64,000 bases of DNA, from positions 2,527,001-2,591,000 of the forward strand of contig NZ_CP032152.1 of assembly GCF_003555505.1 (NCBI RefSeq). The letters are read 5' to 3'. Positions 18,539 through 34,738 of this stretch are shown here, one piece after another (position 1 is the first letter of the stretch; each line of letters opens with the position of its first letter). Under the pieces are notes generated by a model, which was not told the origin of the DNA, did no database searches, and saw only the letters and a program-made list of their open reading frames with translations. This DNA comes from Thermosynechococcus sichuanensis E542. GTDB lineage: Bacteria > Cyanobacteriota > Cyanobacteriia > Thermosynechococcales > Thermosynechococcaceae. Made by a program: the position numbers and the translations under genes.

Positions 18539-18577
18539 GGGTGTTCAAGTAACCCGTTGAAGACAAGGGCAACAACC

Positions 18578-20137
18578 GTGAGCAACAAAATTGAAGCCAT
18601 TAAAAAAGAAAAAGATGGCTTAGCGGTTAAACAAGAGCTAGAGAAGTTTGCAGCTATGGGCTGGGAAAACATCCCAGAAGCCGATCGCGACGTGCGTCTG
18701 AAGTGGTTAGGGATTTTCTTTCGGCCTGTCACCCCCGGCCGGTTCATGATGCGGCTGCGGGTACCGAATGGCATTCTCACTAGTCAACAACTGCGAACTC
18801 TTGGCGAAATTGTCGATCGCTATGGCGAGAATGGCAACGGGGACATCACTACCCGTCAAAACATTCAGATTCGTGGTTTACCCATCGAAGATATTCCCGA
18901 AATCATAGAGCGGCTCCAAGCCTGTGGCCTCACCTCGGTTCAATCGGGAATGGATAACGTACGCAACCTCACTGGCTCCCCAGTGGCAGGGATTGATGCG
19001 GCTGAACTCATTGACACCCGCCCCCTGATTATGAAGTTGCAGGCCATGATCACCAACAATGGTCAGGGGAATCCCGAATTTAGCAATCTACCCCGCAAAT
19101 TCAACATTGCTATTGAGGGGGGGCGAGATAACTCTGTCCATGCGGAAATTAACGATGTCGCCTTTGTACCTGCCTATCGAGAAGGGCGTTTAGGCTTCAA
19201 TGTCCTAGTCGGTGGCTTCTTTTCTGCTCGGCGTTGTGCTGCGGCTATTCCCTTAGATGCGTGGGTGCCCCCCGATGATGCTGTGGTGCAGCTCTCACGC
19301 GCCATCCTTGAAATTTTCCGTGACCATGGCCTGCGGGGCAATCGCCAAAAAGCGCGGCTGATGTGGCTTATTGATGAGTGGGGTATTGAGAAATTTCGGG
19401 CTGCGGTTGCGGCTAAACTCCCCTTTGAACTGTTGAGTGCTGCCCCAAAAGACGAAATTGACTGGGACAAGCGAGATCATTTGGGGGTACACCGCCAGAA
19501 ACAACCGCGCCTTAACTACGTAGGACTGCATGTACCTGTCGGGCGACTCTATGCCCCCGACTTCTATGAATTGGCACGGCTTGCCCAAGTGTATGGCCAG
19601 TCAGAGGTGCGGCTCACCGTAGAGCAAAACGTGATCATTCCCCATGTACCCGATGCCGTTTTACCCAGTCTGCTGCGGGAACCTCTCCTGAGCAGGTTTC
19701 GCCCTGAACCCCCGCCCTTGGAGCGTGCCCTTGTGTCCTGTACGGGTGCACAATTTTGCAACTTTGCCCTCATTGAGACCAAGAATCGTGCCCTTGCCCT
19801 TGCCCGCTGGCTCGATCAACAATTGGTGCTGCCACAACCGGTGCGGATTCACTGGACGGGCTGCCCCAACTCCTGTGGCCAACCGCAGGTGGCCGATATT
19901 GGCCTCATGGGCACGAAAACTCGCCGCAATGGCGAAACTGTGGATGCGGTGGATTTGTACATGGGTGGCAAAGTGGGCAAGGATGCCAAGCTGGGTACCT
20001 GTGTGAAAAAAGCCATTCCCTGTGACGAACTACCTGAGGTGCTACGGCAACTGCTCATTGAGCATTTTGGTGCTCAGCCCATCAGTTTAGATACGCCCCC
20101 CGCGGCTACTCCTGCTGTAGCAATGGTGATCTCTTGA
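18578..20137 (+). CDS. nirA: Ferredoxin-nitrite reductase
   Basis: NirA reduces nitrite to ammonium with six electrons from ferredoxin, using sirohaem and a 4Fe-4S cluster. The cluster ligands are Cys388, Cys394, Cys429 and Cys433 (in CTGAQFCNF and CPNSCGQ). Two ferredoxin-like half-domains and the sirohaem-binding TTRQNIQIRG are also present. A GTG at 18578, preceded by AAGGGC, is chosen as the start, giving 519 residues. An in-frame TTG at 18557 would lie only about 12 bases from the predicted transcription start. First gene of the nitrate operon. Confidence 0.96.
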   Translation: MSNKIEAIKKEKDGLAVKQELEKFAAMGWENIPEADRDVRLKWLGIFFRPVTPGRFMMRLRVPNGILTSQQLRTLGEIVDRYGENGNGDITTRQNIQIRGLPIEDIPEIIERLQACGLTSVQSGMDNVRNLTGSPVAGIDAAELIDTRPLIMKLQAMITNNGQGNPEFSNLPRKFNIAIEGGRDNSVHAEINDVAFVPAYREGRLGFNVLVGGFFSARRCAAAIPLDAWVPPDDAVVQLSRAILEIFRDHGLRGNRQKARLMWLIDEWGIEKFRAAVAAKLPFELLSAAPKDEIDWDKRDHLGVHRQKQPRLNYVGLHVPVGRLYAPDFYELARLAQVYGQSEVRLTVEQNVIIPHVPDAVLPSLLREPLLSRFRPEPPPLERALVSCTGAQFCNFALIETKNRALALARWLDQQLVLPQPVRIHWTGCPNSCGQPQVADIGLMGTKTRRNGETVDAVDLYMGGKVGKDAKLGTCVKKAIPCDELPEVLRQLLIEHFGAQPISLDTPPAATPAVAMVIS

Positions 20138-20191: not shown

Positions 20192-21508
20192 ATGGTGAAT
20201 TTTTCTCGTCGGCGCTTTCTCATGACGGCTGCGGCCACGACGGCTGTGACATTAATCGCCCACGGTTGTCGCAATAGTCAGCAAAGCAGTGACGTTGCCC
20301 AACCCACTACTGTGGCGGAAACGCCGGAGGTCACAAGCGTCAAACTCGGCTTTATTGCCCTCACGGATGCAGCCCCCCTGATTATCGCTAAGGAAAAGGG
20401 CCTCTTTGCCAAGTACGGAATGCCTGATGTGGAGGTAATTAAGCAAGCCTCCTGGGGCGTGACCCGCGACAATTTGGTATTGGGTTCGGCAGGCGGTGGC
20501 ATTGATGGTGCCCACATTCTCTCGCCAATGCCCTACCTGATGACAGCGGGCACCATTACAGGTGGCAAAAAGGTACCAATGTACATCTTGGCACGCTTAA
20601 ACACAAATGGTCAGGGGATTGTCTTGGCAAGTGCCTACAAAGACCTGAATATCACCACCGACAGTCGTCCCCTGAAGGATGCCTTTGCGAAAACCCGTGC
20701 GGAACGGCGTGCCCGCAATCAAGAGGAGGATATCAAGGTTGCGGTGACCTTTCCGGGGGGTACTCACGACCTCTGGATGCGCTATTGGTTAGCTGCTGGT
20801 GGCATTGATCCGGAAAAGGATGTTTCCGTGATTGTTGTGCCGCCTCCTCAGATGGTGGCCAATATGAAGACCGGTACCATGGAAGTGTTTTGTGTCGGCG
20901 AACCTTGGCCGCAACAGGCCGTGAATCAGCAGATTAGTGCGGGTGGAATTACCACTGGTGAGTTTTGGCAGGATCATCCCGAAAAGTCCCTTGCCCTACG
21001 TGCCGACTGGGTTGATAAACATCCGAAGGCCGCCAAGGCGCTCCTCATGGCAGTGATGGAAGCCCAACAATGGTGCGATCGCCCCGAAAACAAGCCAGAA
21101 ATGGCAAAAATCATTGCCCAGCGCCAATGGTTAAAGGTACCTGTTGAAGATATTTTAGACCGCTCCCTTGGCAAGTTTGATTTTGGCACACGCACGCTGG
21201 AAAATGATAACCTTGCCATGAAGTTTTGGCGAGATAATGCCTCCTATCCGTACCAAAGTCATGATCTGTGGTTCCTAACGGAGGACATTCGCTGGGGGTA
21301 TTTACCGGCGGATACGGACACCAAAGCGCTCATCCAAGAAGTGAACCGCGAGGATCTGTGGCGAGAAGCCGCTAAAGCAATGGGGGTGCCGGCAGCAGAA
21401 ATTCCCACTACCACTTCTCGGGGAGTGGAAACCTTTTTTGATGGCGTGGCCTTTGATCCGCAAAATCCTCAAGCCTATTTGAACAGTTTGGATTTGAAAA
21501 AAGTTTAG
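20192..21508 (+). CDS. nrtA: Nitrate/nitrite-binding lipoprotein
   Basis: The 438-residue protein is the substrate-binding component of the NrtABCD transporter. The N-terminus has a twin-arginine motif (SRRRFLM, residues 5-11) and a candidate lipobox ending at C26 (LIAHGC), so folded export and membrane anchoring are likely. The binding domain starts VKLGFIALTDAAPLIIAKEKGLF, a signature shared with the C-terminal half of nrtC in this window. Urea or bicarbonate (CmpA) homologues are related, but the operon context fixes the nitrate role. Confidence 0.94.
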   Translation: MVNFSRRRFLMTAAATTAVTLIAHGCRNSQQSSDVAQPTTVAETPEVTSVKLGFIALTDAAPLIIAKEKGLFAKYGMPDVEVIKQASWGVTRDNLVLGSAGGGIDGAHILSPMPYLMTAGTITGGKKVPMYILARLNTNGQGIVLASAYKDLNITTDSRPLKDAFAKTRAERRARNQEEDIKVAVTFPGGTHDLWMRYWLAAGGIDPEKDVSVIVVPPPQMVANMKTGTMEVFCVGEPWPQQAVNQQISAGGITTGEFWQDHPEKSLALRADWVDKHPKAAKALLMAVMEAQQWCDRPENKPEMAKIIAQRQWLKVPVEDILDRSLGKFDFGTRTLENDNLAMKFWRDNASYPYQSHDLWFLTEDIRWGYLPADTDTKALIQEVNREDLWREAAKAMGVPAAEIPTTTSRGVETFFDGVAFDPQNPQAYLNSLDLKKV

Positions 21509-21520
21509 AGGTAAGAAATC

Positions 21521-22363
21521 ATGGCAAGTTCTTCGATGAGTTTTACGCAATCTCGGCGGCGTTGGTTAAGGCACCTCAAGAAGTCAGCGGTGTTTCGCAA
21601 GGTGGTACTGGGCAGTGTGGGGGTGCTGTGTTTCCTTGTTATTTGGCAGTTTGTTTGCATGGCGGGGCTACTGCGGCTACCGACGCCCCTGAAGGTAATT
21701 GCAGAAACGTGGGATTTGATCATCGATCCCTTTTATCAAGGGAGTGGCACTGATGTCGGGTTGGGGTGGCAAATCCTCACCAGTCTGCGGCGGGTAGCTA
21801 TTGGCTTTTCCTTGGCAGCCATCATAGGTGTCGGTCTGGGAATGCTGATTGGCTCTAGTCGGCTGCTCTACGATGCTGTGGATCCGATTTTGCAGGTGTT
21901 GCGACCGGTGCCGCCCCTTGCGTGGTTGCCTATTTCCTTGGCGGCTCTGCGGGACAATGAACCAGCAGCGATTTTCGTGATTTTCATTACCGCCATTTGG
22001 CCAATTATTATCAACACCATTGTTGGTGTGCAGCAAATTCCCAAGGACTACAAGAATGTGGCACGGGTGTTGCGGCTCTCTCGCAAGGATTATTTCTTGA
22101 ATATTCTGGTGCCCGCAACAGTGCCCTATGTCTTTACGGGACTGCGGATTGGTATTGGGCTGTCTTGGTTAGCAATTGTGGCGGCGGAGATGCTCATTGG
22201 CGGTGTCGGCATTGGCTTCTTTATCTGGGATGCTTGGAACAGTTCCCTGATTAGTGAAATTATCGTTGCGGTGATCTATGTCGGCATTGTCGGCTTGGTC
22301 TTGGATCGGTCGGTGGCGTTTGTCGGTCGCTTGCTGAGCCACGGCGAAGAGGTGCATTCCTAG
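21521..22363 (+). CDS. nrtB: Nitrate transporter permease
   Basis: The 280-residue inner-membrane permease has about six hydrophobic helices and the EAA loop VQQIPKDYKNVARVLRLSRK, where it would contact the ATPases. It begins with a basic cytoplasmic N-terminus (SRRRWLRHLKK). GAGGTAAG precedes the ATG, and the gene starts 12 bp after nrtA. The NrtB dimer would form the nitrate/nitrite channel driven by NrtC and NrtD. Confidence 0.95.
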   Translation: MASSSMSFTQSRRRWLRHLKKSAVFRKVVLGSVGVLCFLVIWQFVCMAGLLRLPTPLKVIAETWDLIIDPFYQGSGTDVGLGWQILTSLRRVAIGFSLAAIIGVGLGMLIGSSRLLYDAVDPILQVLRPVPPLAWLPISLAALRDNEPAAIFVIFITAIWPIIINTIVGVQQIPKDYKNVARVLRLSRKDYFLNILVPATVPYVFTGLRIGIGLSWLAIVAAEMLIGGVGIGFFIWDAWNSSLISEIIVAVIYVGIVGLVLDRSVAFVGRLLSHGEEVHS

Positions 22364-22415
22364 CTTGCTCGCTATGCCAAAGATTTTCCAGATTGTCTGA
22401 AAACATGAGTTTCCT

Positions 22416-24410
22416 ATGGCCAAGTCTTTACCATTAATTGAAATCGATCATGTGGATCAGGTCTTTGACCTGCCGGGGGGCGATCGCTACATTGCGCTGA
22501 AGAATATCCACTTGGAAATTGAAAAAGGGGAGTTTATCTCCTTGGTCGGTCACTCCGGCTGTGGCAAATCCACGCTCTTGAATATCATTGCTGGGTTTCA
22601 GCGGCCTAGCAGCGGTGGTGTAGTGATGGCAGGGCGGCAGGTGACAGAACCGGGACCGGATCGCATGGTGGTGTTCCAAAACTATTCGCTGTTGCCTTGG
22701 AAAACGGTGTACCAGAATGTAGCCTTAGCCGTGGCGGCGGTGCTGGGACATTTGAGCAAGGCAGAGCAACGGCAGCGGGTAGAAGCAGCACTGCAACAGG
22801 TGCACCTCAGTCAAGCTCGCGATAAATTTCCTGCTCAATTGTCGGGGGGAATGAAGCAACGGGTGGCGATCGCCCGCGCCTTGGCGATTCAACCGCAGGT
22901 TCTCCTGCTGGATGAACCCTTTGGTGCCCTTGATGCTCTGACCCGAGGCTCTTTGCAGGACGAGTTAATGCAAGTGTGCCAAGGGAGTGAAACCACCTGC
23001 GTGATGGTCACCCACGATGTGGATGAGGCACTGTTGCTCTCGGATCGCGTGGTGCTGCTCACCAATGGCCCTGAAGCCCACATTGGCCAAATTTTGAAAA
23101 TTCCCTTTGCCCGTCCCCGCAATCGCCATGATGTGCTGAATCATCCCAGCTACTATGGTCTGCGCAATGAGATGATTGCCTTTCTCAACCAGCAAAAACG
23201 CCGCCGCCCACCTTTGCGGGTACCCACCAGTGCGCCCACAGCTTCAGTGGCCCTCAGCCTTGGCTTTATTCCCCTCATAGACAGTGCCCCCCTGATTGTC
23301 GCTAAGGAAATGGGCTTTTTTGCCAAGTACGGCCTTGAGGATGTGACACTGCACCGCGAAGAAAGCTGGCAAGACTTAGTGATGGGGGTGCTCACCGGTC
23401 GCTTGACGGGGGGACAACTGCTGGCAGCCATGCCCCTAGCAATGACCTTGGGACTCAATGGTCAACCTTCACAGCCGCTGATGACTTCGTTGGTTCTCAG
23501 CCGCAATGGCAATGCCATCACCTTTAGTCGAGATCTCTGGGCACAGGGAGTGAAAAGCGCTGAGGATCTGCGAGCCTACATTCAGCGCAGCAGCGATCGC
23601 CCTCGCTTTGGTGTGGTGCATCCTGCCTCAATGCACAATCTGCTGTTGCGCTACTGGCTGGCCGCCGCAGGGATTGACCCGGATTATGATGTCGAGTTGC
23701 TGGTGATTCCGCCACCACAAATGGTCTATCACCTTAAGGCGGGACACATCAGTGGCTTTTGTGTCGGTCAGCCCTGGAACTCCCATGCGGTGCGCGAGGG
23801 TGTTGGCGTTATTGTTGCTACGGATTTGGACATTTGGCCGGGGCACCCCGAAAAAGTCTTGGGTATACGTCCTGAGTGGGTAGAAGCTCACCCGCAGGAA
23901 CACCAAGCCCTAGTCAAGGCACTGATTGAAGCCTGTGAATACTGCGACATCATCAAGCATCGCCCCGAAATTGCGCAACTGCTTTGTCGGCCAGAATATG
24001 TGGGCTGTCAGGCAGCAGATGCCTATGCGGGCTTTGTCGATCCTTTGGATTGGGGAGATGGCATTGCCAGTGCCTTTCAACCTCGATTTCACCAGTTCTA
24101 TGTGGATCGCTCCCCCTGCCCTGGACGGGTGGAGGGACTGTGGATTATCACTCAGTTGGCGCGTTGGCAACTGACGCCTTTTCCCAAGAACTGGCTGGAA
24201 ATTGTTGAGCAGGTGCGGCGGGTCGATCTCTTTGGAGCGGCGGCGCGGGAGCTGAAGGTTGTGGATAATGAGCCGGATCGCTCTGCCTTTTCCCTCTTCG
24301 ACGGCCTGCCCTTTGATCCCGATAATCCCCTTGGCTACATTGAGGCGGCTGCGATTCGTCGTGGCCTTGATATTCGCACCATTAACCCCCAAGCAGTTGT
24401 TGCTGTCTAG
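22416..24410 (+). CDS. nrtC: Nitrate transporter ATPase with fused NrtA-like regulatory domain
   Basis: The 664-residue protein has an ABC ATPase (about 1-255) with Walker A GHSGCGKS (45-52), signature LSGGMKQR and Walker B LLLDEP. A short linker leads to an NrtA-like solute-binding domain (about 283-650, starting LSLGFIPLIDSAPLIVAKE). In Synechococcus this C-terminal domain mediates ammonium-promoted inhibition of transport, and the same is inferred here. Both halves look intact. It starts 52 bp after nrtB. Confidence 0.95.
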   Translation: MAKSLPLIEIDHVDQVFDLPGGDRYIALKNIHLEIEKGEFISLVGHSGCGKSTLLNIIAGFQRPSSGGVVMAGRQVTEPGPDRMVVFQNYSLLPWKTVYQNVALAVAAVLGHLSKAEQRQRVEAALQQVHLSQARDKFPAQLSGGMKQRVAIARALAIQPQVLLLDEPFGALDALTRGSLQDELMQVCQGSETTCVMVTHDVDEALLLSDRVVLLTNGPEAHIGQILKIPFARPRNRHDVLNHPSYYGLRNEMIAFLNQQKRRRPPLRVPTSAPTASVALSLGFIPLIDSAPLIVAKEMGFFAKYGLEDVTLHREESWQDLVMGVLTGRLTGGQLLAAMPLAMTLGLNGQPSQPLMTSLVLSRNGNAITFSRDLWAQGVKSAEDLRAYIQRSSDRPRFGVVHPASMHNLLLRYWLAAAGIDPDYDVELLVIPPPQMVYHLKAGHISGFCVGQPWNSHAVREGVGVIVATDLDIWPGHPEKVLGIRPEWVEAHPQEHQALVKALIEACEYCDIIKHRPEIAQLLCRPEYVGCQAADAYAGFVDPLDWGDGIASAFQPRFHQFYVDRSPCPGRVEGLWIITQLARWQLTPFPKNWLEIVEQVRRVDLFGAAARELKVVDNEPDRSAFSLFDGLPFDPDNPLGYIEAAAIRRGLDIRTINPQAVVAV

Positions 24411-24429: not shown

Positions 24430-25245
24430 ATGGAAACCCTCTATCGTCTTGACCCTCGTTTAACGGCCACCCAGCATCTGCGCATTGATGGCGTGAGCAA
24501 GGCCTACCCTACGACTAATGGCAGCCATGTGGTTCTCGAGGATATTCACCTTGAGGTAAGCAGTGGTGAATTTGTTTGTTTCATTGGCCATTCTGGCTGC
24601 GGCAAAACGACGCTTTTGAATATGGTTGCGGGTTTTACAGCGCCGACACGAGGAGAAATCACCCTTAATGGCGTGCCGGTACGACGGCCGGGACCAGATC
24701 GCATGATGGTGTTTCAAAACTATGCGCTGCTGCCTTGGTTGACCGCCTACCAGAATATTGAGCTGGCGGTGAAGTCGGTCTATCCCCAGAAAACTCGCCA
24801 ACGCCGCCGCCAAATTGTTGAGGAGCACTTGGAACTGGTGGGTTTGACGGCGGCGGCCCACAAACGCCCCGCCCAACTGTCGGGGGGGATGAAACAACGG
24901 GTGGCGATCGCCCGCGCCCTTGCCATTCGGCCAGAGGTATTGATTTTAGATGAACCCTTTGGCGCCCTTGATGCCATCACCAAGGAGGAGTTGCAGGATG
25001 AACTCCTAAAGATTTGGCACAGCCACCGGCTGACGGTACTGATGATTACCCACGACATTGATGAGGCACTCTATCTTGCGGATCGGGTGGTGATGATGAC
25101 CAATGGTCCTGCTGCCCATATTGGTGACATTCTAGAAGTTCCCTTTCCTCGCCCCCGCCGGCGATCGCAACTCCTCGAAGATCCGCAGTATTACGATCTG
25201 CGTAACCAAGTGGTTGACTTTTTGTACACCCGCTTTGGGCACTAA
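24430..25245 (+). CDS. nrtD: Nitrate transporter ATPase
   Basis: The 271-residue ABC ATPase has Walker A GHSGCGKT (53-60), signature LSGGMKQRVAIARALA, Walker B LILDEPFGALD and the switch His in MITHD. It lacks the C-terminal binding domain of NrtC, with which it would form a heterodimer on NrtB. The start is 19 bp after nrtC, preceded by GAGAGAAG. Its stop is 3 bp before the narB start. Confidence 0.95.
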   Translation: METLYRLDPRLTATQHLRIDGVSKAYPTTNGSHVVLEDIHLEVSSGEFVCFIGHSGCGKTTLLNMVAGFTAPTRGEITLNGVPVRRPGPDRMMVFQNYALLPWLTAYQNIELAVKSVYPQKTRQRRRQIVEEHLELVGLTAAAHKRPAQLSGGMKQRVAIARALAIRPEVLILDEPFGALDAITKEELQDELLKIWHSHRLTVLMITHDIDEALYLADRVVMMTNGPAAHIGDILEVPFPRPRRRSQLLEDPQYYDLRNQVVDFLYTRFGH

Positions 25246-25248
25246 TGT

Positions 25249-27672
25249 ATGGCTACGCCGCAGGTTGGCTCACTGGCAGTTCAGTCCAGTCGTTACCTCT
25301 GCTACTACCGTAATACCAGTGAGAGTGTTCAGCAAATTAGCCTCTCAAATCAGCCGACTTGGCAACGGGTGGTGTTTCCGGGGCAGCAGCTTTTGTTCCA
25401 TGGCGATGCCACAGCAGATCTGATCATTACTTCCGAGGAAGGGGTGAGCCGCTGTTCCTGTGAGTCACTGCGGGTAGAGGAAAAAAGCCGTTCGATCCCT
25501 GAACCCACCACCCCCGTGTCGTCCCTGTGTCCCTACTGTGGCGTGGGCTGTGGCCTAGAAGCCGTGCCCCAAGGTAAGGGCACCTATAAAGTTCGCGGCG
25601 ATCGCCAGCATCCCTCATCCCAGGGCATGGTCTGTGTGAAGGGAGCAACCATTTTGGAGTCCCTCGATCGCGATCGCTTGGCCTATCCCCTTTGGCGGGA
25701 ACAACTGGATCAACCCTTTACGGTGATTTCTTGGGATGAAGCCCTGACTCGTCTTGTGGAACGCCTGCAATGGGTGCGGCGTGAGCAGGGAGCCGATGCT
25801 ATTTGTATGTACGGTTCGGGGCAATTTCAAACCGAGGACTACTACGTGGCACAAAAGCTCATGAAAGGTTGCCTCGGTACCAATAACTTTGATGCCAATT
25901 CCCGGCTGTGTATGTCCTCGGCGGTGTCAGCCTACATGGCCAGCTTCGGTGCTGATGGCCCCCCCTGCTGCTACGACGACTTGGAAGCCACTGACTGTGC
26001 TTTCCTTATCGGCACCAATACCGCTGAGTGCCATCCTATTGTCTTTAATCGCCTGCGCAATCACCACAAGCGCGATCGCCGCGTCAAGCTAATTGTTGTC
26101 GATCCGCGGCGCACGCCGACAGCGGAAGTGGCGGATCTGCACCTTGCCATTCGTCCCGGCACAGATATTGACCTGCTCCACGGCATTGGCCATCTGCTGT
26201 TGGAATGGGGACACATAGACGCTGAGTTTATTGAGGAGTGTACTGAAGGCTTTGCTGAGTATGTGAAGCTGCTGGCGGCCCACACGCCAGAATGGGTGGC
26301 GCAACGTTGTGGCATTGCTCAAAGCGATCTAGAGCAGGCGGCTCGCTACTGGGGTCATGCCCAAGCAGTACTCTCCCTCTGGTCTATGGGCATCAATCAG
26401 TCCGCTGAAGGAACTGCCAAAGCCCGCTGTCTCATTAACCTGCACTTGCTCACGGGGCAGATTGGCCGTCCGGGGAGTGGTCCTTTTTCACTGACAGGAC
26501 AACCCAACGCTATGGGAGGTCGCGAAGCTGGGGGTCTAAGCCATCTGTTGCCGGGCTATCGCCAAGTCACGAATCCCCAGCACCGCCAAGAGGTGGAAGA
26601 CTTTTGGGGACTGCCGCGCGGTCAGATTAGCGATCGCCCGGGTCGCACGGCGTGGCAAATTGTCGAGGGCTTAGAAAAGGGAGAAGTAGGTTTGCTGTGG
26701 ATTGCCGCCACCAATCCTGCGGTCAGTTTTCCCCATTTAGAGCGTGCCAAGGCGGCCTTTCTCAAGTCTCCCTTTACCGTCTATCAGGATGCCTACTTCC
26801 CGACTGAAACGGCGGCCTATGCCCATCTGATTTTGCCGGCGGCGCAATGGAGTGAAAAAACAGGTGTCATGACCAACTCTGAACGCCGTGTGACTCTTGC
26901 CCCTGCTTTTCGCTCGCCCCCCGGTGTTGCCCGTCCTGACTGGGAAATTTTTGCCGAAGTGGGTCGCCGCTTGGGATATGGGCACCTCTTCCAGTTTGCC
27001 GATGCTGCTGCTGTCTATGCCGAATTTGTCCAGCTTACGGCTGGTCGCCCCTGCGATCAATCGGGTCTCAGCCATGAACGCCTTGCTCGTTTAGGTGCTT
27101 TGCAGTGGCCCTGTCCAGCAGGGATGAGTGATGAAGAAGCCCGCCAACCGAAGCGCCTTTACACTGACTGGCGATTTCACACCCCCAATCAACGGGCACA
27201 TTTTTGCCTTGCCCACAGTCAGGGTGTGGCCGAACCTACCGATCACATCTATAGCTTTATCCTGACGACGGGTCGTCTCTACGGTCACTGGCACACCCAA
27301 AGCCGTACCGGTCGCATTGCCAAAATCCAAAAAATGCACCCCGAGCCCTTTGTGGAAATGCACCCCGAGGATGCTGCAAACTTGCATGTCAAAGAGGGGG
27401 ATTGGGTAGAGGTGCGATCGCGCCGAGGTCAAGTGTGCCTGCCTGTCATTCTCACCAAAGCCATTCGACCCGGGACGCTCTTTGTGCCCATGCACTGGGG
27501 TTTCCTTTTTGCCGATAGCGGTGAAGCCAATCAGCTCACCCATCCTATTGCCTGTCCAGTCTCAAAGCAGCCAGAACTCAAAGCCTGTGCAGTGCAAGTG
27601 TTGCCCCTGAAGTTGCGGCAGACGCCCTATACGCCCACGGTACAGGAAAGCGGCATTGCCCTCAGGCCATAA
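25249..27672 (+). CDS. narB: Assimilatory nitrate reductase with N-terminal DUF1830-like domain
   Basis: NarB reduces nitrate to nitrite with ferredoxin electrons, using bis-MGD molybdenum and one 4Fe-4S cluster. Cluster ligands are C94, C97, C101 and C129 ([11 protein letters not shown] onward). The likely Mo-ligand is C221 (SRLCMSS), and the C-terminal MGD-binding domain is present. The 807 residues exceed the usual 710-730 for cyanobacterial NarB. The extra N-terminus contains a stretch (about 15-78: [34 protein letters not shown]) that I recognise as DUF1830, normally a small separate cyanobacterial protein. No stop separates them. ATG at 25249 is 3 bp after nrtD. A GTG just before CPYC could give a standard NarB. 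Confidence 0.93.
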
Positions 27673-27702
27673 TAAAATCAGCGGGGAGAGTTGTTGCGAT
27701 CT

Positions 27703-28158
27703 ATGTCCCACTTCTTTGAGTTTGAAGCTGAGTTCACGGCTTCATTGCGCTGCATTCCAATGATTGTCCGCTACAAGCTGGATCTGTGTGGAGTAAAGCT
27801 GAAACTGCTCCACTGGCACCAACTCTCGCAAGAACAACGGCAATGGCTGGTGGTGACTCCCTGTGACACCCCAGAAGCTCAGGCTATCTATCGCCAGCAA
27901 CTGCGGGATTGGGTGACCCACAACCATGGAACGCCGCCAAGTGATCTGGAGCTGCCCCAATCCTATCCTTGGGAGATCACCACAGAAGTACCAGAGACCG
28001 TGCAGCAACAACTGACAAAGGTACCCCACCACAGCCTGACAGTGGAAAAATGGGCGGCTCTGACGCCTCTACAACGCTTTGCCCTTGTCAAGCTTAGCCA
28101 ACCCGGTCACGAGAATCGCAATTTTTGGCCAGCATTGCAGGAATTTGGCCTAGCGTGA
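27703..28158 (+). CDS. narM: NarM, nitrate reductase-associated protein
   Basis: The 151-residue protein begins MSHFFEFEAEFTASLRCIPM and continues RYKLDLCGVKLKLLHWHQLS, the pattern of the nitrate reductase-associated family (NarM). Family knowledge: NarM is needed for active NarB in Synechococcus, probably in maturation. The ATG at 27703 fits better than an in-frame TTG at 27691. It lies 30 bp after narB and ends the nirA operon. Its stop is 4 bp from the stop of the convergent molybdate transporter gene. Confidence 0.87.
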   Translation: MSHFFEFEAEFTASLRCIPMIVRYKLDLCGVKLKLLHWHQLSQEQRQWLVVTPCDTPEAQAIYRQQLRDWVTHNHGTPPSDLELPQSYPWEITTEVPETVQQQLTKVPHHSLTVEKWAALTPLQRFALVKLSQPGHENRNFWPALQEFGLA

Positions 28159-28162
28159 ACGG

Positions 28163-29302
28163 CTAAGACAGTTGCAGTGGCATTTTTCTGCCGATGTAGT
28201 ACAGGGTTGTACCAACAAGGGTGCCCACTAAGAAACCTTGGGGCACACTGAGGGCGATCGCCCCGACGAGGAGGGTAATCATCCAATTTTCGGCAATGGG
28301 GGCTTGGTCTTTGATAAAGCTCATCAATACCCACGCTTCAAACAACAGAATCACCCCCAAAATCGAGAGGGGAAAAATTTCCAGCAGTTTATCAACACTG
28401 GAGCCAAAGAAGAGACCCAACACAAGGTAGAGGCTGCCATAGATCACCACTGCCCCACCCGTGCGGGCACCGAGGGCATAATGCCCAGCCAAGCCACTAC
28501 AACCATGGCAGAGGGGCACGCCACCAAAGAAGGGTAGGATCAGGTTGGTGAGGCTATACGTAAGGCCAATTTGGCGAATCGAGAGGGGGCGATCGGGAAA
28601 GAGATCTTGGGCAGTTTGCTGGGTTGCAATCACTGCATTGGCGATCGACAGCGGCAACTGCGGCAGTGCCAACATCAGGAGTCCAGGAAGCAAGGTCTGA
28701 AGTTCTAAAGGCTGCATGTGGGGAAGCTGCCAAGCAACAGTTAAGTGCAATTCTGGATCAGCCAAGACACGGCTAATGGCCACGCCCACGCCCAGCAACA
28801 CCACCAGTAGTCCTGCGGGTACTCCCCGTTCCTTCGGCAGTAGCAGCAAGATTAAAAAGCCGATAGCACCGAGGAGATAACCAAAGGCATCACCCCTGGG
28901 TAGATAGGTCTTGAGGGCAACGGAGGCCAAAGACAGTCCCAAACCCAATTGACAGCCGCGCACCACCGGTTGGGGAATCCAACGAGCCAGTTGCGTCAGA
29001 ATGCCCGTAAGCGTCAAGACCAGCATCATCGTGCCCACCATCCACCCCCCCGCCCAAAGGATGGGGCCACTGAGTTTTTGCGTTATCACAATGACAGCCA
29101 TGGCCTTGAGGGGTTGCATCGGCATGGGCAGGCCATAGATCACCCCGGTGAGAATTTGCGCTATGCCAAACACCGTGAAGACGCTAGCACTATCCAACTG
29201 GGCGGCCATGATGATCCCCACCAATAGGGGCAAGTCCGTACCCAAATCCCCAAAACTACCACTGAGTTCTTGCCAATTAAAGCGCAGCCAGTTCCTCAAC
29301 AC
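28163..29302 (-). CDS. MOT1-type molybdate (sulphate-family) transporter
   Basis: The 379-residue protein has about ten membrane segments and the two MOT1/SulP-like signatures: ELSGSFGDLGTDLPLLVGI near the N-terminus and PLCHGCSGLAGHYALGARTG near 260. MOT1 proteins import molybdate, and location beside nitrate reductase and cofactor genes supports that substrate over sulphate. The GTG start directly abuts the stop of the upstream TrpD-like gene with no gap, so coupling is likely. Third gene of the ntcB transcript. Confidence 0.82.
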   Translation of the reverse strand: MLRNWLRFNWQELSGSFGDLGTDLPLLVGIIMAAQLDSASVFTVFGIAQILTGVIYGLPMPMQPLKAMAVIVITQKLSGPILWAGGWMVGTMMLVLTLTGILTQLARWIPQPVVRGCQLGLGLSLASVALKTYLPRGDAFGYLLGAIGFLILLLLPKERGVPAGLLVVLLGVGVAISRVLADPELHLTVAWQLPHMQPLELQTLLPGLLMLALPQLPLSIANAVIATQQTAQDLFPDRPLSIRQIGLTYSLTNLILPFFGGVPLCHGCSGLAGHYALGARTGGAVVIYGSLYLVLGLFFGSSVDKLLEIFPLSILGVILLFEAWVLMSFIKDQAPIAENWMITLLVGAIALSVPQGFLVGTLVGTTLYYIGRKMPLQLS

Positions 29303-30355
29303 CTAGACCTTCTCCAGTATGGTTTGCAATTTCTGTAGGTGTTGGTTTACCTTACCACTGCGGAGAAGTTCGCTACTCAGTGCGAGTCCAGAATTGAGGC
29401 TATCGGCTTTGCCTCCCTGCCATAGATAAAATCCACTATTCCAGATCACGGAGGCAGTGAGGGGCTGCTCCTCTGCGGCTAAAACGGCAGCCATCATTTT
29501 TGTAGCGGTCGTTGTGTCCTCTGGCCAAGGCACATTGCTGCTGCCCATGCCATAATCTTGGGGATGCAGGCGCAGGCGTTGCCAAGGCAGATCTTGATTA
29601 CGGGCGAGGCCAATAATGGCGGTGCGTTCGCGGGGCAAGTCACAACTCCCTTCAAGACCTTTGACGGTGGTAAATTCCTGAATACCGTGGAGATAGAGGG
29701 CATCACGGATGATGGTTTCCGTCGGCGGATGGACAAACCCCGCAACTATATGACTGCGCCCTTGATAGGGATTCCAGATTAACTCCAAGGTGGCAATGGG
29801 GGGACGTTTGCCAATTTGCTCACGGTAGGGCACTAACCCTTGGGCTGCGGGAAAATGACGCGGCAGATAGACAAAGCCTAGTCCAGTTTGCGCTAGGCAG
29901 TGGGCAGTTTGTTCTAGGGTCAGGGTTGACCAATCCACTCCTAAGCACCGCCACAGATTAATGAGGGGTACACCTTCCTTGGTGGGCATGCGATCGCCCC
30001 CATGTTGAAGCACAGGCACTCCAGCAGTCGCTAAAACCAATGCCGTTAGAGGACTGAGGGGAAATGTGCGATCGCGACCATCATAGGGCTGACTGAGGAT
30101 CATTACTGGGTCACTCATCTCGACCGCTGGAATTTTCGGCCCCAACTCGTTGTAGGTATCGAGCATACCCGCCATCTCTTCTGGGGTGGGTCGCTTAATC
30201 CGATGGGCAATGAGAAACGCGCCAATTTGCGCCGGCGTTGCCACCTGTTCCAGCATTAGTTGCAACGCTAGGGCTGCCTCAGCACGGGTCAAATCTTTAT
30301 GGGTGTGGGCACCACTGCCAACTTTTTTGAGCAGATCACGAAAGAGAGGACTCAT
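29303..30355 (-). CDS. TrpD-like (anthranilate phosphoribosyltransferase family) protein
   Basis: The 350-residue protein has the glycosyltransferase family 3 fold: an N-terminal helical domain (LTRAEAALALQLMLEQVATPAQIGAF) and the larger domain starting after 75. The phosphoribosyl-pyrophosphate loop is altered (LSQPYDGRDRTFPLSP, then LQHGGDRMPTKEGVP). The canonical TrpD motif GTGGD is not seen, so it is unlikely to be the biosynthetic TrpD. Proteins of this type often stand near ntcB in cyanobacteria, but role is unknown. It overlaps the ntcB end by 20 bp and abuts the transporter gene. Confidence 0.75.
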   Translation of the reverse strand: MSPLFRDLLKKVGSGAHTHKDLTRAEAALALQLMLEQVATPAQIGAFLIAHRIKRPTPEEMAGMLDTYNELGPKIPAVEMSDPVMILSQPYDGRDRTFPLSPLTALVLATAGVPVLQHGGDRMPTKEGVPLINLWRCLGVDWSTLTLEQTAHCLAQTGLGFVYLPRHFPAAQGLVPYREQIGKRPPIATLELIWNPYQGRSHIVAGFVHPPTETIIRDALYLHGIQEFTTVKGLEGSCDLPRERTAIIGLARNQDLPWQRLRLHPQDYGMGSSNVPWPEDTTTATKMMAAVLAAEEQPLTASVIWNSGFYLWQGGKADSLNSGLALSSELLRSGKVNQHLQKLQTILEKV

Positions 30356-31244
30356 GGGCAGCCTGCTGGCGAATCAAGGTGAGCAATTGGGCAATGGGGG
30401 GTAAGGTCAGGCGATCGCGGGTAGTAATGGCCAATACTTGACGCGGGGGCGGCGGTGTCGTTAAATTGCGGATCACTAGGGTGGGATCGTGGAGTGCGTC
30501 TTTCAGCGCCGAGCGGGGAAGCAAAGCCAGCATCTCACTTTCGCGGATCACAGCAACAAAGGCATCGGGGGTGTTGAGTTCAAGGGCTGGTTGCCAATGT
30601 AAACCCCGACGGCTAAATTCTTCGGCCACTAAGCGGCGCATGCCATAGCCATCCTTAAACACCACATGGGGAAAGCGGGCTAATTCTTGCCAAGTCACGG
30701 TTTCACTGGCTGCGAGGGGGTGCTCAGCCGCCATCAGGACTTGCACCGCTTCACTGTAGAGGGGTTCAATCACCCATTCCGACTGTTTGAAGAGATGGCG
30801 ATCGCCCATGACAATCGCTAGATCTACCAAACCATCCTGTAACACTTTGAGGGCGCGATCGCTCCCTAGAGCTGTCACCCGCAACTGCATCTGGGGAAAG
30901 GCCTGACAAAACCTTGGCAACAGCGTGGGCAAAAAGTAGCGGCAGATGGAGTGAATCGCAGCAATACAGAGTTCCTGCTGCTGGCCATTTTGCATCGCTT
31001 TGAGTTCAGCACTAGCGGCCTGCCATTCCTGACAGATGCGATGGGCACGGCGCAAAAAGAGATCTCCGGCCACTGTCAACTTGGCACGATTGGAACGATG
31101 CAAGAGTTGAATTCCCAAACTTTCTTCTAGGGCTTGGATTTGCCGACTAATCGTGGGCTGCGTCACCCCGCACCGCCGTGCTGCTGCTTGGAAACTCCCT
31201 GTCTCAGCAACAGCCAAAAAGGATTGCAACTGATCAAGCCGCAT
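30336..31244 (-). CDS. ntcB: LysR-type nitrate assimilation activator NtcB
   Basis: The 302-residue protein has an N-terminal winged helix (MRLDQLQSFLAVAETGSFQ, TQPTISRQIQALEESLG) and a LysR effector domain (about 90-295). NtcB enhances nirA operon expression in response to nitrite, together with NtcA. The ATG at 31244 is the family-like start; an upstream extension to 31313 would enter the promoter. Position in the nitrate cluster supports the name. The cbbR/cmpR-type regulator is the main alternative. First gene of a transcript with the TrpD-like and molybdate transporter genes. Confidence 0.88.
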   Translation of the reverse strand: MRLDQLQSFLAVAETGSFQAAARRCGVTQPTISRQIQALEESLGIQLLHRSNRAKLTVAGDLFLRRAHRICQEWQAASAELKAMQNGQQQELCIAAIHSICRYFLPTLLPRFCQAFPQMQLRVTALGSDRALKVLQDGLVDLAIVMGDRHLFKQSEWVIEPLYSEAVQVLMAAEHPLAASETVTWQELARFPHVVFKDGYGMRRLVAEEFSRRGLHWQPALELNTPDAFVAVIRESEMLALLPRSALKDALHDPTLVIRNLTTPPPPRQVLAITTRDRLTLPPIAQLLTLIRQQAAHESSLS

Positions 31245-31302
31245 AATGCTTGCTGTGTTCTCCTCTCTGCGTCTATAGCCATTGATTGGATTGTGGCCTT
31301 CA

Positions 31303-31344
31303 ATTCTATGCACTTTCTACATAACAAAGGGTGCTCATTGATAC
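31303..31344 (-). promoter_or_regulatory. NtcA-type promoter of ntcB
   Basis: On the minus strand, GTATCAATGAGCAC (31344-31331) fits the relaxed NtcA site GT-N10-AC. It is followed after exactly 22 bases by TAGAAT (31308-31303), a TAN3T -10 element. This is the same geometry as the nirA promoter, so ntcB would be activated by NtcA. Confidence 0.7.
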
Positions 31345-31409
31345 AATTTTTGAGAATTTCCCATACTCCATCCTCTTGACTTCAGCATTGATCTCAAGGC
31401 TTGAATATT

Positions 31410-31423
31410 GTTATCAAGGATAC
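31410..31423 (+). promoter_or_regulatory. Possible NtcA site upstream of cynS
   Basis: GTTATCAAGGATAC fits GT-N10-AC. TAAAGA at 31445-31450, 21 bases downstream, is a weak -10 candidate. cynS is an NtcA target in other cyanobacteria, which is the main support. Confidence 0.35.
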
Positions 31424-31488
31424 AGAAGTACAATCACTTTTTCCTAAAGACTTAAAAATGTTGTTTTTGCAAGCTGCGTGTCCCAAAC

Positions 31489-31926
31489 ATGATTCCAGAG
31501 ATCACTGTCAAGCTACTAAAAGCCAAGCGGGAGAAGGGGCTGACTTTTGCTGAATTAGGTCAACTGATTGGTCAAAGTGAAGTATTCACAGCAGCAGTTT
31601 TTTATCGTCAAGCGACTGCTACAGCCGACCAAGTCCAACAATTATCAAAAGCCCTAGAACTTCCAGAATCAGAATTGGTTGAACTAATGATTTATCCCGT
31701 TAAGGGCTTAGGTTCTACAGTGCCCACCGATCCCTTGATATACCGCTTTTACGAAATCATACAAGTCTATGGCCTACCCCTCAAGGACGTTATTCAAGAG
31801 AAATTTGGTGATGGAATCATGAGTGCGATTGATTTCACACTAGATGTTGAAAAGATAGAGGATCCCGCGGGTGCAAGGGTTAAAGTGATCATGAATGGTA
31901 AGTTCCTACCTTATAAAAAGTGGTAG
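31489..31926 (+). CDS. cynS: Cyanate hydratase (cyanase)
   Basis: Cyanase converts cyanate and bicarbonate to carbamate and CO2, releasing ammonium. The 145-residue protein has the catalytic triad R86, E89 and S112, offset by ten from E. coli R96, E99 and S122, in [11 protein letters not shown] and [13 protein letters not shown]. The N-terminal helix-turn-helix-like domain is also present ([16 protein letters not shown]). It is transcribed alone, divergently from ntcB. Confidence 0.96.
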
Positions 31927-32471: not shown

Positions 32472-32726
32472 CTAGCCCCCGGCAACAGGGGGAATAAAGA
32501 CGACTTTATCTCCAGCTCGTAGGGGGTGATCCAGTCCCATAAACGTATCATTCGCCGCCACCTTAACATGAGCTAGATCAAGAGTAAACCCATACTGCGC
32601 CTTCAGTTCTTGGTATAGCTCGCCATAGGTTTGGGCAGTGGTCACTCGCTCCTCCTCTTCGCACTGGCTCTGCTCCCGCAACTGAGCAAAATAGCGTAGA
32701 TAGACTGTTTTAGGCACGTCGGACAT
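32472..32726 (-). CDS. moaD: Molybdopterin synthase sulphur carrier subunit
   Basis: An 84-residue ubiquitin-like protein ending in the essential Gly-Gly (FIPPVAGG). MoeB would adenylate this terminus before sulphur transfer. It overlaps the end of the moaC-mobA fusion gene by 17 bp and lies 7 bp before moaE, consistent with coupled synthesis of the synthase subunits. Confidence 0.92.
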   Translation of the reverse strand: MSDVPKTVYLRYFAQLREQSQCEEEERVTTAQTYGELYQELKAQYGFTLDLAHVKVAANDTFMGLDHPLRAGDKVVFIPPVAGG

Positions 32727-33768
32727 GGTGTAGGGCTTCCAGATAATCTTCAGGGGTGTTGATGTTGGCAGTAATGGTGGGCTGGGGGGGGGTGATCCGC
32801 TGGCAGGGCGATCGCTGGAGAATTTTCACAGGGCAGTAGATTCCTTCGGCATAGGCAGCTTCAAACACTGGTAGAGCTTGGGGGGTATAAATGGCACACA
32901 GCGGCTCTGGAAACCCCTCTTGAGGATGGTGATAACAGGTGGCCACCACATCTTCGCGGTAGTGGTGCAGTAGGGGAGCCAAGGTTTCCAGCGTCAAATA
33001 GGGTAAGTCACAGGCCACGACCAGCCAGTTCACTTGGGGATAGGCACGCAAAGCCGTTAGGATGCCTGCAATGGGGCCAATCTGGGGAAGGGTATCTGTC
33101 AGCGTTGGCAAATCCGCAAGGGGGGTTCCCTGCCATTGGTTGGGTTGTGCCGAGAGAAAGACCTGTTCACAGGATTGAGCTAGTAAATTGTAGAGGTACT
33201 GGGCATGGGGTTCGCCGTAGTAGTCTAGAAGGGCTTTGGCCTGACCCATTCGCTGACTTTGGCCACCCGTGAGCACAAGCCCATAGAGGGGATATTGGCT
33301 GAGGGTTTTCTTGCCGCCACTTTTGGCTAGCAGGCGCACATCGCGAATCACAATGTGGGGGCTGAGGGCTTTGGCCATGTCGTAGATTGTCAGGGCTGCG
33401 ATCGCCACCCCATGGAGGCTTTCCATTTCCACCCCGGTGCGATCGCGGGTTTTCACCTCACAGCGCAGACGAATGTGTAGGCCACTCTCTCGGGACTCAA
33501 TATCCGTCTCAAAGTGACAACTGGTAATCGACAGTGCATGGCAAAAGGGAATCGCTTCAGCGGTGCGTTTTACCGCCATTGTGCCGGCAATAATCGCCGT
33601 TTGCACCACAGGTCCTTTCTTGAGAAAGAGATCTCCTCCTTGCACATAGGCCTGAAAGACCGGTGGCAATTCAATGAGGGCTTCTGCAACGGCGCGGCGA
33701 TCGCTCACGGCCTTCTCGCTAATGTCCACCATTTGGGGTTGTTGGTTTTCATTAATGTGGGAGAGCAT
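32710..33768 (-). CDS. MoaC-MobA fusion protein
   Basis: Residues about 1-155 are MoaC (LSHINENQQPQMVDIS, PFCHALSITSCHFETDI, TGVEMESLHGVAIAALTIYDM), the cyclic pyranopterin monophosphate synthase. Residues about 162-352 are MobA (GLVLTGGQSQRMGQAKALL, VACDLPYLTLE, FPEPLCAIYTP), which attaches GMP to molybdopterin. Thus an early and a late cofactor step share one polypeptide. The MobA product is the dinucleotide form NarB needs. The start at 33768 is typical for MoaC and follows GGAGG. A longer form from 33798 would overlap moaA. Confidence 0.93.
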   Translation of the reverse strand: MLSHINENQQPQMVDISEKAVSDRRAVAEALIELPPVFQAYVQGGDLFLKKGPVVQTAIIAGTMAVKRTAEAIPFCHALSITSCHFETDIESRESGLHIRLRCEVKTRDRTGVEMESLHGVAIAALTIYDMAKALSPHIVIRDVRLLAKSGGKKTLSQYPLYGLVLTGGQSQRMGQAKALLDYYGEPHAQYLYNLLAQSCEQVFLSAQPNQWQGTPLADLPTLTDTLPQIGPIAGILTALRAYPQVNWLVVACDLPYLTLETLAPLLHHYREDVVATCYHHPQEGFPEPLCAIYTPQALPVFEAAYAEGIYCPVKILQRSPCQRITPPQPTITANINTPEDYLEALHHVRRA

Positions 33769-33772
33769 CCTC

Positions 33773-34738
33773 CTAGCCTCCAATCTGGTGCATGGCATGG
33801 TGTACTTCTGCTCCGCGCAGACTGGGTTTCATGCCCAACATTTGCTCATAGGCGGCATACCGTTCCCTTTGACTGAGTCCCCGCAGCGACACTCCCGCCT
33901 CCTTAAATAGACACGCCCGTAGGATACCGTCCGCAGATAATCGCCAGCGAGAGCAGTGGCCACAGAAGGGTTGGGATTCTGAGGCAATAAAGCCAATCTG
34001 CCCACCACAGGCCGTCTCAAAGTTAAAGGAGGTGGAATCCAAGGGACGCGGCACAGGGCGCAGATCATAGTGTTGACGTAAGCGCTCAATCATTGCCGCC
34101 GCACTAATAAAGCGATCGCTCCCCAAATGACAAGCATAGCCAATGCGCATCAGTTCCAAAAAGCGCACCTCAATTCCCAACCCCTTGGCGTACTCCACCA
34201 TCGGCACCAGTTCATGGTCATTCACCCCCCCCATCACCACCATGTTTAGCTTCACTTGAAATCCTTGTTGCACCGCAGTGGCCACCGCCGCCTTCACCGT
34301 GTCCAAATAGTGGCCATGACTAATCGCCGCAAAGGTTTGGGGGTCGAGGCTATCCAGACTAATATTCAAACGGCGTACCCCATAGTGTGCCAAGAGGGGC
34401 AAAAAGGGCACAAGACGAATCCCATTCGTGGTTAGGCTCAGTTCTGGCACACCCACTGCCGCCAAGGCGGCCACAATCTCCGCAAACTCAACCCGCAGGA
34501 GCGGTTCACCCCCCGTGAGGCGCACAGACTCAATCCCCAATTCCACCAATTCAGCCACAATCGTGGCATACTCTGCCGGGGTTAGATAGGTCTGGGGGGA
34601 CATAAAAGCAGCATCCACTGGCATACAGTAGGTACAGCGCAAATTACAGCGATCGGTAACCGACAGGCGTAACTTGCGAATTTGTCGCCCCTGAGCATCC
34701 CTCAGGCGTTGGCTGGGGGCAGTAGTGGCCACAACCAT
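33773..34738 (-). CDS. moaA: GTP 3',8-cyclase MoaA
   Basis: MoaA is the radical SAM enzyme that begins molybdenum cofactor synthesis from GTP. It has the SAM cluster motif CNLRCTYC, the second cluster Cys in CGHCSRWRLSADGILRAC, ESVRLTGGEPLLR, and the conserved C-terminal Gly-Gly (HQIGG). The start MVVATTAPSQ at 34738 gives 321 residues. An in-frame start at 34771 would overlap moeA by 28 bases. It follows moeA and precedes the moaC-mobA gene by about 4 bp. Confidence 0.95.
   Translation of the reverse strand: MVVATTAPSQRLRDAQGRQIRKLRLSVTDRCNLRCTYCMPVDAAFMSPQTYLTPAEYATIVAELVELGIESVRLTGGEPLLRVEFAEIVAALAAVGVPELSLTTNGIRLVPFLPLLAHYGVRRLNISLDSLDPQTFAAISHGHYLDTVKAAVATAVQQGFQVKLNMVVMGGVNDHELVPMVEYAKGLGIEVRFLELMRIGYACHLGSDRFISAAAMIERLRQHYDLRPVPRPLDSTSFNFETACGGQIGFIASESQPFCGHCSRWRLSADGILRACLFKEAGVSLRGLSQRERYAAYEQMLGMKPSLRGAEVHHAMHQIGG

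Follow-up and report, generated by a model that had tools for sequence, protein, structure and literature searches.

In Thermosynechococcus sichuanensis E542 a newly described regulator is fused to its target enzyme: a DUF1830 domain resembling PirN is encoded in frame with the nitrate reductase NarB, and this fusion is here confirmed, conserved among related genomes and repeatedly lost. The gene lies within a stretch of 64,000 nucleotides of contig NZ_CP032152.1 (positions 2,527,001 to 2,591,000), referred to below as the window. Consistent with the original prediction, one uninterrupted frame leads from the DUF1830 domain through a short linker into a complete NarB, and its Pfam matches follow in that order. 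A profile search of residues 1-90, proposed earlier as a check, returned DUF1830 (PF08865) as the single Pfam match (residues 18-74, E = 7.8e-11), and its 42.2 bits exceed the family's gathering cut-off of 25 bits, which places the domain within DUF1830. Three further domains are matched in the full protein, namely Molybdop_Fe4S4 (90-139), Molybdopterin (143-573) and Molydop_binding (670-781); together with the CPYC-x3-C cluster, these Fe4S4 and molybdopterin domains identify the rest of the protein as NarB.

18557..20137, + strand: nirA (nitrite reductase), first gene of the cluster, with NIR_SIR and NIR_SIR_ferr domains
20192..24410, + strand: nrtA, nrtB and nrtC (ORFs 20192-21508, 21521-22363 and 22416-24410)
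24430..25245, + strand: nrtD (nitrate ABC transporter ATPase), directly upstream of the fusion (ABC_tran, E 1.1e-33)
25249..27672, + strand: pirN::narB fusion ORF, 807 aa from an ATG start, free of internal stops
25249..25296, + strand: start codon and N-terminal arm, residues 1-16, the ATG lying 3 nt after the nrtD stop
25300..25479, + strand: DUF1830 (PirN) domain, residues 18-77, from the PF08865 match, trees, profile search, C-to-FP spacing and domain model
25300..25302, + strand: Cys18, first of two DUF1830-wide cysteines, present in 77/77 rows compared
25459..25461, + strand: Cys71, second DUF1830-wide cysteine (C-x-x-L), with C..L near the domain end in 77/77 rows
25480..25518, + strand: linker, residues 78-90, of varying length among fused proteins
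25519..27672, + strand: NarB catalytic part, residues 91-807 plus stop (Molybdop_Fe4S4, Molybdopterin, Molydop_binding)
27691..28158, + strand: narM-type gene (Nitr_red_assoc), directly downstream of the fusion (PF09655, E 1.3e-58)

The genes are arranged in the order nirA-nrtA-nrtB-nrtC-nrtD-[pirN-narB]-narM. From gene order, we take four of the ORFs to be nrtA, nrtB, nrtC and nrtD; the first three encode NMT1_2, BPD_transp_1, and ABC_tran plus NMT1_2 domains, respectively. The CPYC motif of NarB begins at 25528, and the DUF1830 domain sits between it and the nrtD stop (25245). C94, C97, C101 and C129, which would hold the NarB cluster as in other members of the family, are invariant in the alignment of fused proteins, and the enzyme is predicted to be ferredoxin dependent from homology and from its nirA-nrtABCD-narM setting. 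The Fe4S4 and molybdopterin domains and the adjoining narM-type gene are those of an ordinary cyanobacterial NarB. Downstream of narM, the region from 28163 to 31926 encodes a molybdate transporter (MFS_MOT1), a TrpD-like glycosyl transferase family protein, a LysR regulator and a cyanase, bringing nitrate, molybdenum and cyanate genes together, and about 5 kb beyond narB a 362-aa ORF on the minus strand (32710-33798) combines MoaC with a MobA-like nucleotidyltransferase domain.

The surveyed narB loci (177 distinct loci) form a nonrandom sample: NarB is present in 332 of 388 genomes, and loci were chosen from those that scored highest, with 80 named loci added; L090 and L091, which have no usable CPYC frame, were left uncounted. 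The open stretch before CPYC has a median length of 17 codons, and the farthest in-frame ATG, present at 170 of the 177 loci, lies a median of 8 codons before CPYC, compared with 93 residues in the window. Most loci thus bear out the earlier statement that the usual NarB start lies just before the first cysteines. At least 80 open codons precede the first CPYC at eight loci, seven of which are DUF1830 fusions; at the eighth (L239), the farthest ATG is 8 codons before CPYC. These counts indicate that the long open frame is not a product of chance. A scan for DUF1830 neighbors, covering ORFs of at least 40 codons on the same strand within the stretches fetched, found a free gene only at 12 of the 177 loci, a fusion only at 6, both at one (G287), and no DUF1830 gene at 158. 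Of the 12 free genes, 11 come after nrtD and the remaining one after an nrtP-type MFS gene; an MFS gene of this type also precedes the fusions in G287 and G462. In G287 (L112:7947-10757), the free gene and the fusion stand in tandem with domains that are 52% identical, an arrangement that could be a fusion intermediate or a later duplication.

Alignment with other Thermosynechococcus NarB proteins, also suggested in the original prediction, places the fusion in five (G000, G001, G003, G006 and G008) of the eight narB-bearing genomes of the genus. Eleven genus genomes were searched (E <= 1e-60), and the three with no narB match are each in at least 80 contigs; PMC9403480 describes the nir-nrtABCD-narB operon as conserved in all Thermosynechococcus genomes that it examined. 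One genome of the genus that is 99% complete (G004) has neither a narB match nor any DUF1830 match, PirC-type included. Two neighboring genera of the same family carry it as well, G287 with an open frame of 835 codons and G462 with one of 830, and their fused domains score 64.2 and 73.4 bits against the DUF1830 profile. The fusion is thus present in seven genomes of three genera, which excludes a sequencing or assembly error as its source. All seven fused proteins share the arm motif (S/T)LAV(Q/K).

Three genomes of the genus (G002, G007 and G010) have lost the domain in frame. In G002 and G007, NarB has an M-L/P-T-P start and then runs straight into PVSSLCPYC, while G010 still has the arm at the N terminus and some nine residues from the start of the domain; the single TAG in the G010 gene lies at the far C terminus, so this NarB looks intact. 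A remnant of the arm is also found in G160, a MAG (contig JAUQQP010000044.1) whose NarB is 85% identical to that of the window and whose 41 N-terminal NarB residues gave no Pfam match. According to the NarB tree, the domain was deleted independently at least three times (G002/G007, G010 and G160), with NarB kept each time, and is therefore not needed for catalysis. G160 is placed in another family, and its nrtABCD-narB-narM genes are 77-85% identical to the window cluster (L114 / L172), while the window NarB and those of G287 and G462, which are sister genera, share only 76-77% identity; the likeness of G160 to the window could reflect horizontal transfer or a binning error.

The window domain groups with narB-linked DUF1830 sequences and apart from PirC. 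In a tree of all 54 DUF1830 rows, the seven fused domains and four free ones (G086, G090, G102 and the free G287 copy) form one group (100/97), and the other nine of the 13 narB-adjacent free rows fall on the PirC side; 15 PirC rows were included, and L270 (interrupted by TAA), a false minus-strand match (L253) and repeats of L001 were left out. In a reduced tree, from which five long narB-adjacent rows (L170, L134, L077, L150 and L157) were removed and in which every third PirC row was kept, the same 11 rows group again (99/96), and all 15 remaining narB-linked rows lie on one side, opposite 31 rows of PirC or other paralogues (98/88). Both trees have 66 columns and long branches, and neither the Ssl2814 sequence nor the wrong-strand rows L029 and L030 are among their rows. 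A clade of the fused rows alone is neither rejected (p-AU 0.30) nor established.

The spacing between the first cysteine and the F-P motif agrees with this placement, being 25 residues in the 11 rows of the group, 26 in the narB-adjacent L150, and 27 in 65 others. A profile built from nine of the 11 rows found exactly these 11 places at or above 89.5 bits in 388 genomes (89.5-109.3), with the next listed match at 71.4, a gap that partly reflects the nine rows used to build the profile. Pairwise identities hardly separate PirN from PirC (36-39% between the window domain and two PirC rows, 39-42% with three free genes of its own group, and 46% with the narB-adjacent G470 from outside it), and the placement is therefore based on tree topology, Cys-to-FP spacing and the position of the gene. 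The domain lies between the nitrate transporter genes and narB, a place that its free relatives also occupy. Because it shares a reading frame with NarB and is not a separate small protein, we describe the domain as PirN-like rather than as PirN proper, and the gene as a fusion. The PirC-type group scores 114-120 bits in the 10 of 11 genus genomes that have one. The window domain, at 42 bits, falls outside that group, and the one other DUF1830 gene of its genome is free and of the PirC type (L001, 116.8 bits).

In the NarB tree, the fused and domain-less NarBs and those of G086, G090 and G102 form one group (100/99), which also holds three NarBs with no DUF1830 neighbor (G024, G095 and G417). 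From gene order, we infer that G086, G090 and G102 belong to Synechocystis. The narB-adjacent DUF1830 genes of other families (L139, L157, L165, L166, L170, L200 and others) are diverged and, as far as they were kept, join PirN only if the longest rows are removed. Either they are ancient PirN genes, or PirC-type genes were recruited to narB more than once.

In Synechocystis sp. PCC 6803, we take sll1453 to be nrtD and sll1454 to be narB. Between these two genes lies ssl2814, whose product, a DUF1830 protein, was named PirN in March 2026 (PMC13205821). Loss of PirN was reported to lower NarB protein and not narB mRNA, so that PirN is needed posttranscriptionally for NarB accumulation, and PirN was reported to bind PsbO and PII (PMC13205821). 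The authors favor control of narB translation together with a lumen pool; their in vitro degradation assay gave no obvious difference, and the available sections of that article report no direct PirN-NarB binding. Like PirN, the window domain is a DUF1830 domain between nrtD and narB and is tied to NarB. However, PirN is a free small protein in Synechocystis, whereas the window domain is a covalent part of NarB, and the PsbO and PII binding and the role in NarB accumulation were reported for the Synechocystis protein, whereas the window domain is known from sequence only.

A second precedent is PirC/CfrA (Sll0944), which has the same two cysteines as the window domain and which binds PII and inhibits phosphoglycerate mutase (PMC7760959, PMC12077085). 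It shows how a DUF1830 protein can bind an enzyme directly and be held back by PII (PMC7760959, PMC12077085). With PirC inhibiting phosphoglycerate mutase and PirN acting on NarB, the earlier description of DUF1830 as a domain of unknown role is out of date. DUF1830 is also part of a larger protein in a second, unrelated fusion, a 422-aa protein (L267:2254-3519, G193) with a CHAT domain, a TRADD-like N domain (TRADD_N) and a C-terminal DUF1830. This last domain is of the PirC type (115.5 bits), is attached to a caspase-like protease module and, unlike that of the window, has no link to nitrate reductase. The main text of PMC13205821 does not contain the word “Thermosynechococcus,” and “fusion” and “fused” refer there to tags and an instrument. 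Among the matches listed for literature on DUF1830 and Thermosynechococcus nitrate reductase, no description of a pirN::narB fusion was found, and the available portions of PMC9403480 and PMC10957709 do not describe one; domain databases may already list the DUF1830-NarB architecture.

A full-length AlphaFold model (31 rows) has a mean pLDDT of 61, with values of 30-51 per 10-residue block over residues 1-80, and is too poor for contacts between the domain and NarB to be read from it. The model of the domain alone (4 rows) has six strands and a mean pLDDT of 76.7, with 10-residue blocks at 87-94 over residues 21-70 and at 73-74 over residues 11-20 and 71-80. Foldseek found nothing at E <= 0.001 for this model among PDB and viral models. 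The best VIA-align matches were to a de novo protein (Z 6.3), Caf1M (6.2), an SusC-type NTE domain (5.8) and pVHL (5.6), and as these values are within the common range of the tool, we claim no fold family. Sequence searches gave no PDB match at E <= 10 to residues 1-89 or to the genome's PirC-type protein, no match of PirC query patterns in viral contigs, and nothing significant in PHROGs (best E 0.17).

The fusion of pirN to narB suggests that PirN and NarB work by touching. We consider it probable that the gene is a natural pirN::narB fusion whose PirN module works in cis and within the cytosol, through contact with the NarB polypeptide. The module would bind folding or folded NarB next to its N-terminal Fe4S4 domain, and this contact would raise the yield, stability or readiness of NarB and may link the enzyme to nitrogen status through PII; the step affected could be folding, cofactor loading, protection or activity. 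Free PirN in Synechocystis would do the same in trans, with the fusion fixing a 1:1 ratio, and the translation control and the thylakoid-lumen PsbO branch would be secondary or lineage specific. Being built into the protein that it controls would bring a translation activator no obvious benefit, and a partner of PsbO in the lumen could not do its work while tied to an enzyme of the cytosol, from which we infer that NarB itself is what the module acts on. Direct contact, which PII might gate as it does for PirC, would explain why the fusion was tolerated and kept. Counting against this cis reading are the three domain losses, the 158 loci with no DUF1830 neighbor, the weaker constraint on the domain than on NarB (see below), the PirN and PirC identities that fail to separate, and the preference of the discoverers of PirN for translation. 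More tentatively, and with more doubt than confidence, DUF1830 proteins in general may be PII-linked enzyme-binding modules (PirC for phosphoglycerate mutase and PirN for NarB), with PirN acting on cytosolic NarB, the effects on translation and lumen PsbO being indirect, and the cysteine pair serving as a redox switch for an electron sink. The presence of both cysteines in all 77 DUF1830 rows compared (two wrong-strand rows, L029 and L030, having been left out) suggests redox sensitivity.

The module could instead be a docking site for a brake, where PII binds the fused NarB at low 2-oxoglutarate, lowers its activity and releases it at high 2-oxoglutarate, abundance control being beside the point. 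Such a brake would fit the copurification of PirN with PII (PMC13205821), the 2-oxoglutarate dependence of PirC-PII binding (PMC7760959), and the control of the nitrate transporter by PII through NrtC and NrtD (PMC7344720). However, loss of PirN lowers NarB in Synechocystis, which is the opposite of losing a brake, and we regard this alternative as unlikely.

The upstream part of the gene was compared with NarB in six pairs of fused genus genomes, the wider of which have dS values of 1.2-1.6, near saturation. The dN/dS ratio is 0.10-0.38 for residues 17-78 (0.38 in one pair) and 0-0.14 for residues 2-16, a stretch of only 15 codons; that of the NarB part is 0.03-0.05. These values indicate that the DUF1830 domain is under purifying selection and is less constrained than NarB. 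In all nine aligned genomes (that of the window, seven others of the genus, and G160), four of which have no domain, an ATG follows the nrtD stop at a distance of 3-7 nt. Together, these dN/dS values and the kept ATG make it very likely that the upstream part is translated and selected as a protein. The higher dN/dS of the domain, the shortening of its C-terminal part within the genus, and the independent in-frame deletions, one of which left G010 with the arm and a domain stub, would also fit a decaying passenger, joined to narB by loss of the pirN stop codon, having no role and now being removed lineage by lineage. Against this stand the dN/dS values, which are below 0.4 in all six pairs, the 15 positions of residues 17-78, both cysteines (including the C71 column) among them, that are invariant in the seven fused proteins, and the spread of the fusion over three genera, and we judge such decay quite unlikely.

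The linker evolves fast, with the dN of residues 79-90 being the highest of four regions in five of the six pairs. This and its variable length could point to a polyprotein that is cut after synthesis into equal amounts of free PirN and NarB, in which case PirN could reach the lumen and the published PsbO interaction would stay possible. However, the linker alignment of the seven fused proteins contains no conserved motif, and there is no signal-peptide-like stretch before the domain in the seven N termini tried (five fused and two free), whose best 10-residue Kyte-Doolittle means range from -1.3 to 0.9; cleavage is thus highly improbable. Least probable is a separate NarB product from the internal GTG at codon 90 (25516-25518), the last linker codon, with the upstream frame separate or unused. 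This GTG is four codons before CPYC and near the usual NarB start, but no stop separates the two parts in any of the seven genomes, purifying selection acts on both the domain and residues 2-16, and even domain-less genomes retain the ATG next to the end of nrtD. The last two observations disfavor the start that the original prediction had named as its refutation.

Among the three roles that had been put forward for the domain, regulation of NarB is the best supported, given the likeness of the domain to PirN, a protein reported to control how much NarB is present. No evidence emerged for ferredoxin docking or for a role with NarM in maturation. A narM-type gene adjoins narB, but it does so too in all four genomes that lost the domain; it is absent from the 1.5 kb examined in G001, one of the five fused genus genomes. 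Ferredoxin docking was set aside, as only DUF1830 was matched in Pfam and a domain-less NarB is the norm in the loci seen.

Translation, stability and a lumen signal were all candidate routes in 2026 for the control of NarB by PirN. That three genera retain the gene fusion is independent evidence that PirN and NarB are physically coupled, and the fusion offers a single-chain system for testing the PirN question, with domain-less sister species as natural controls. If the proposed contact is real, the PirC precedent would extend to a second enzyme, and DUF1830 would gain a common mode of action.
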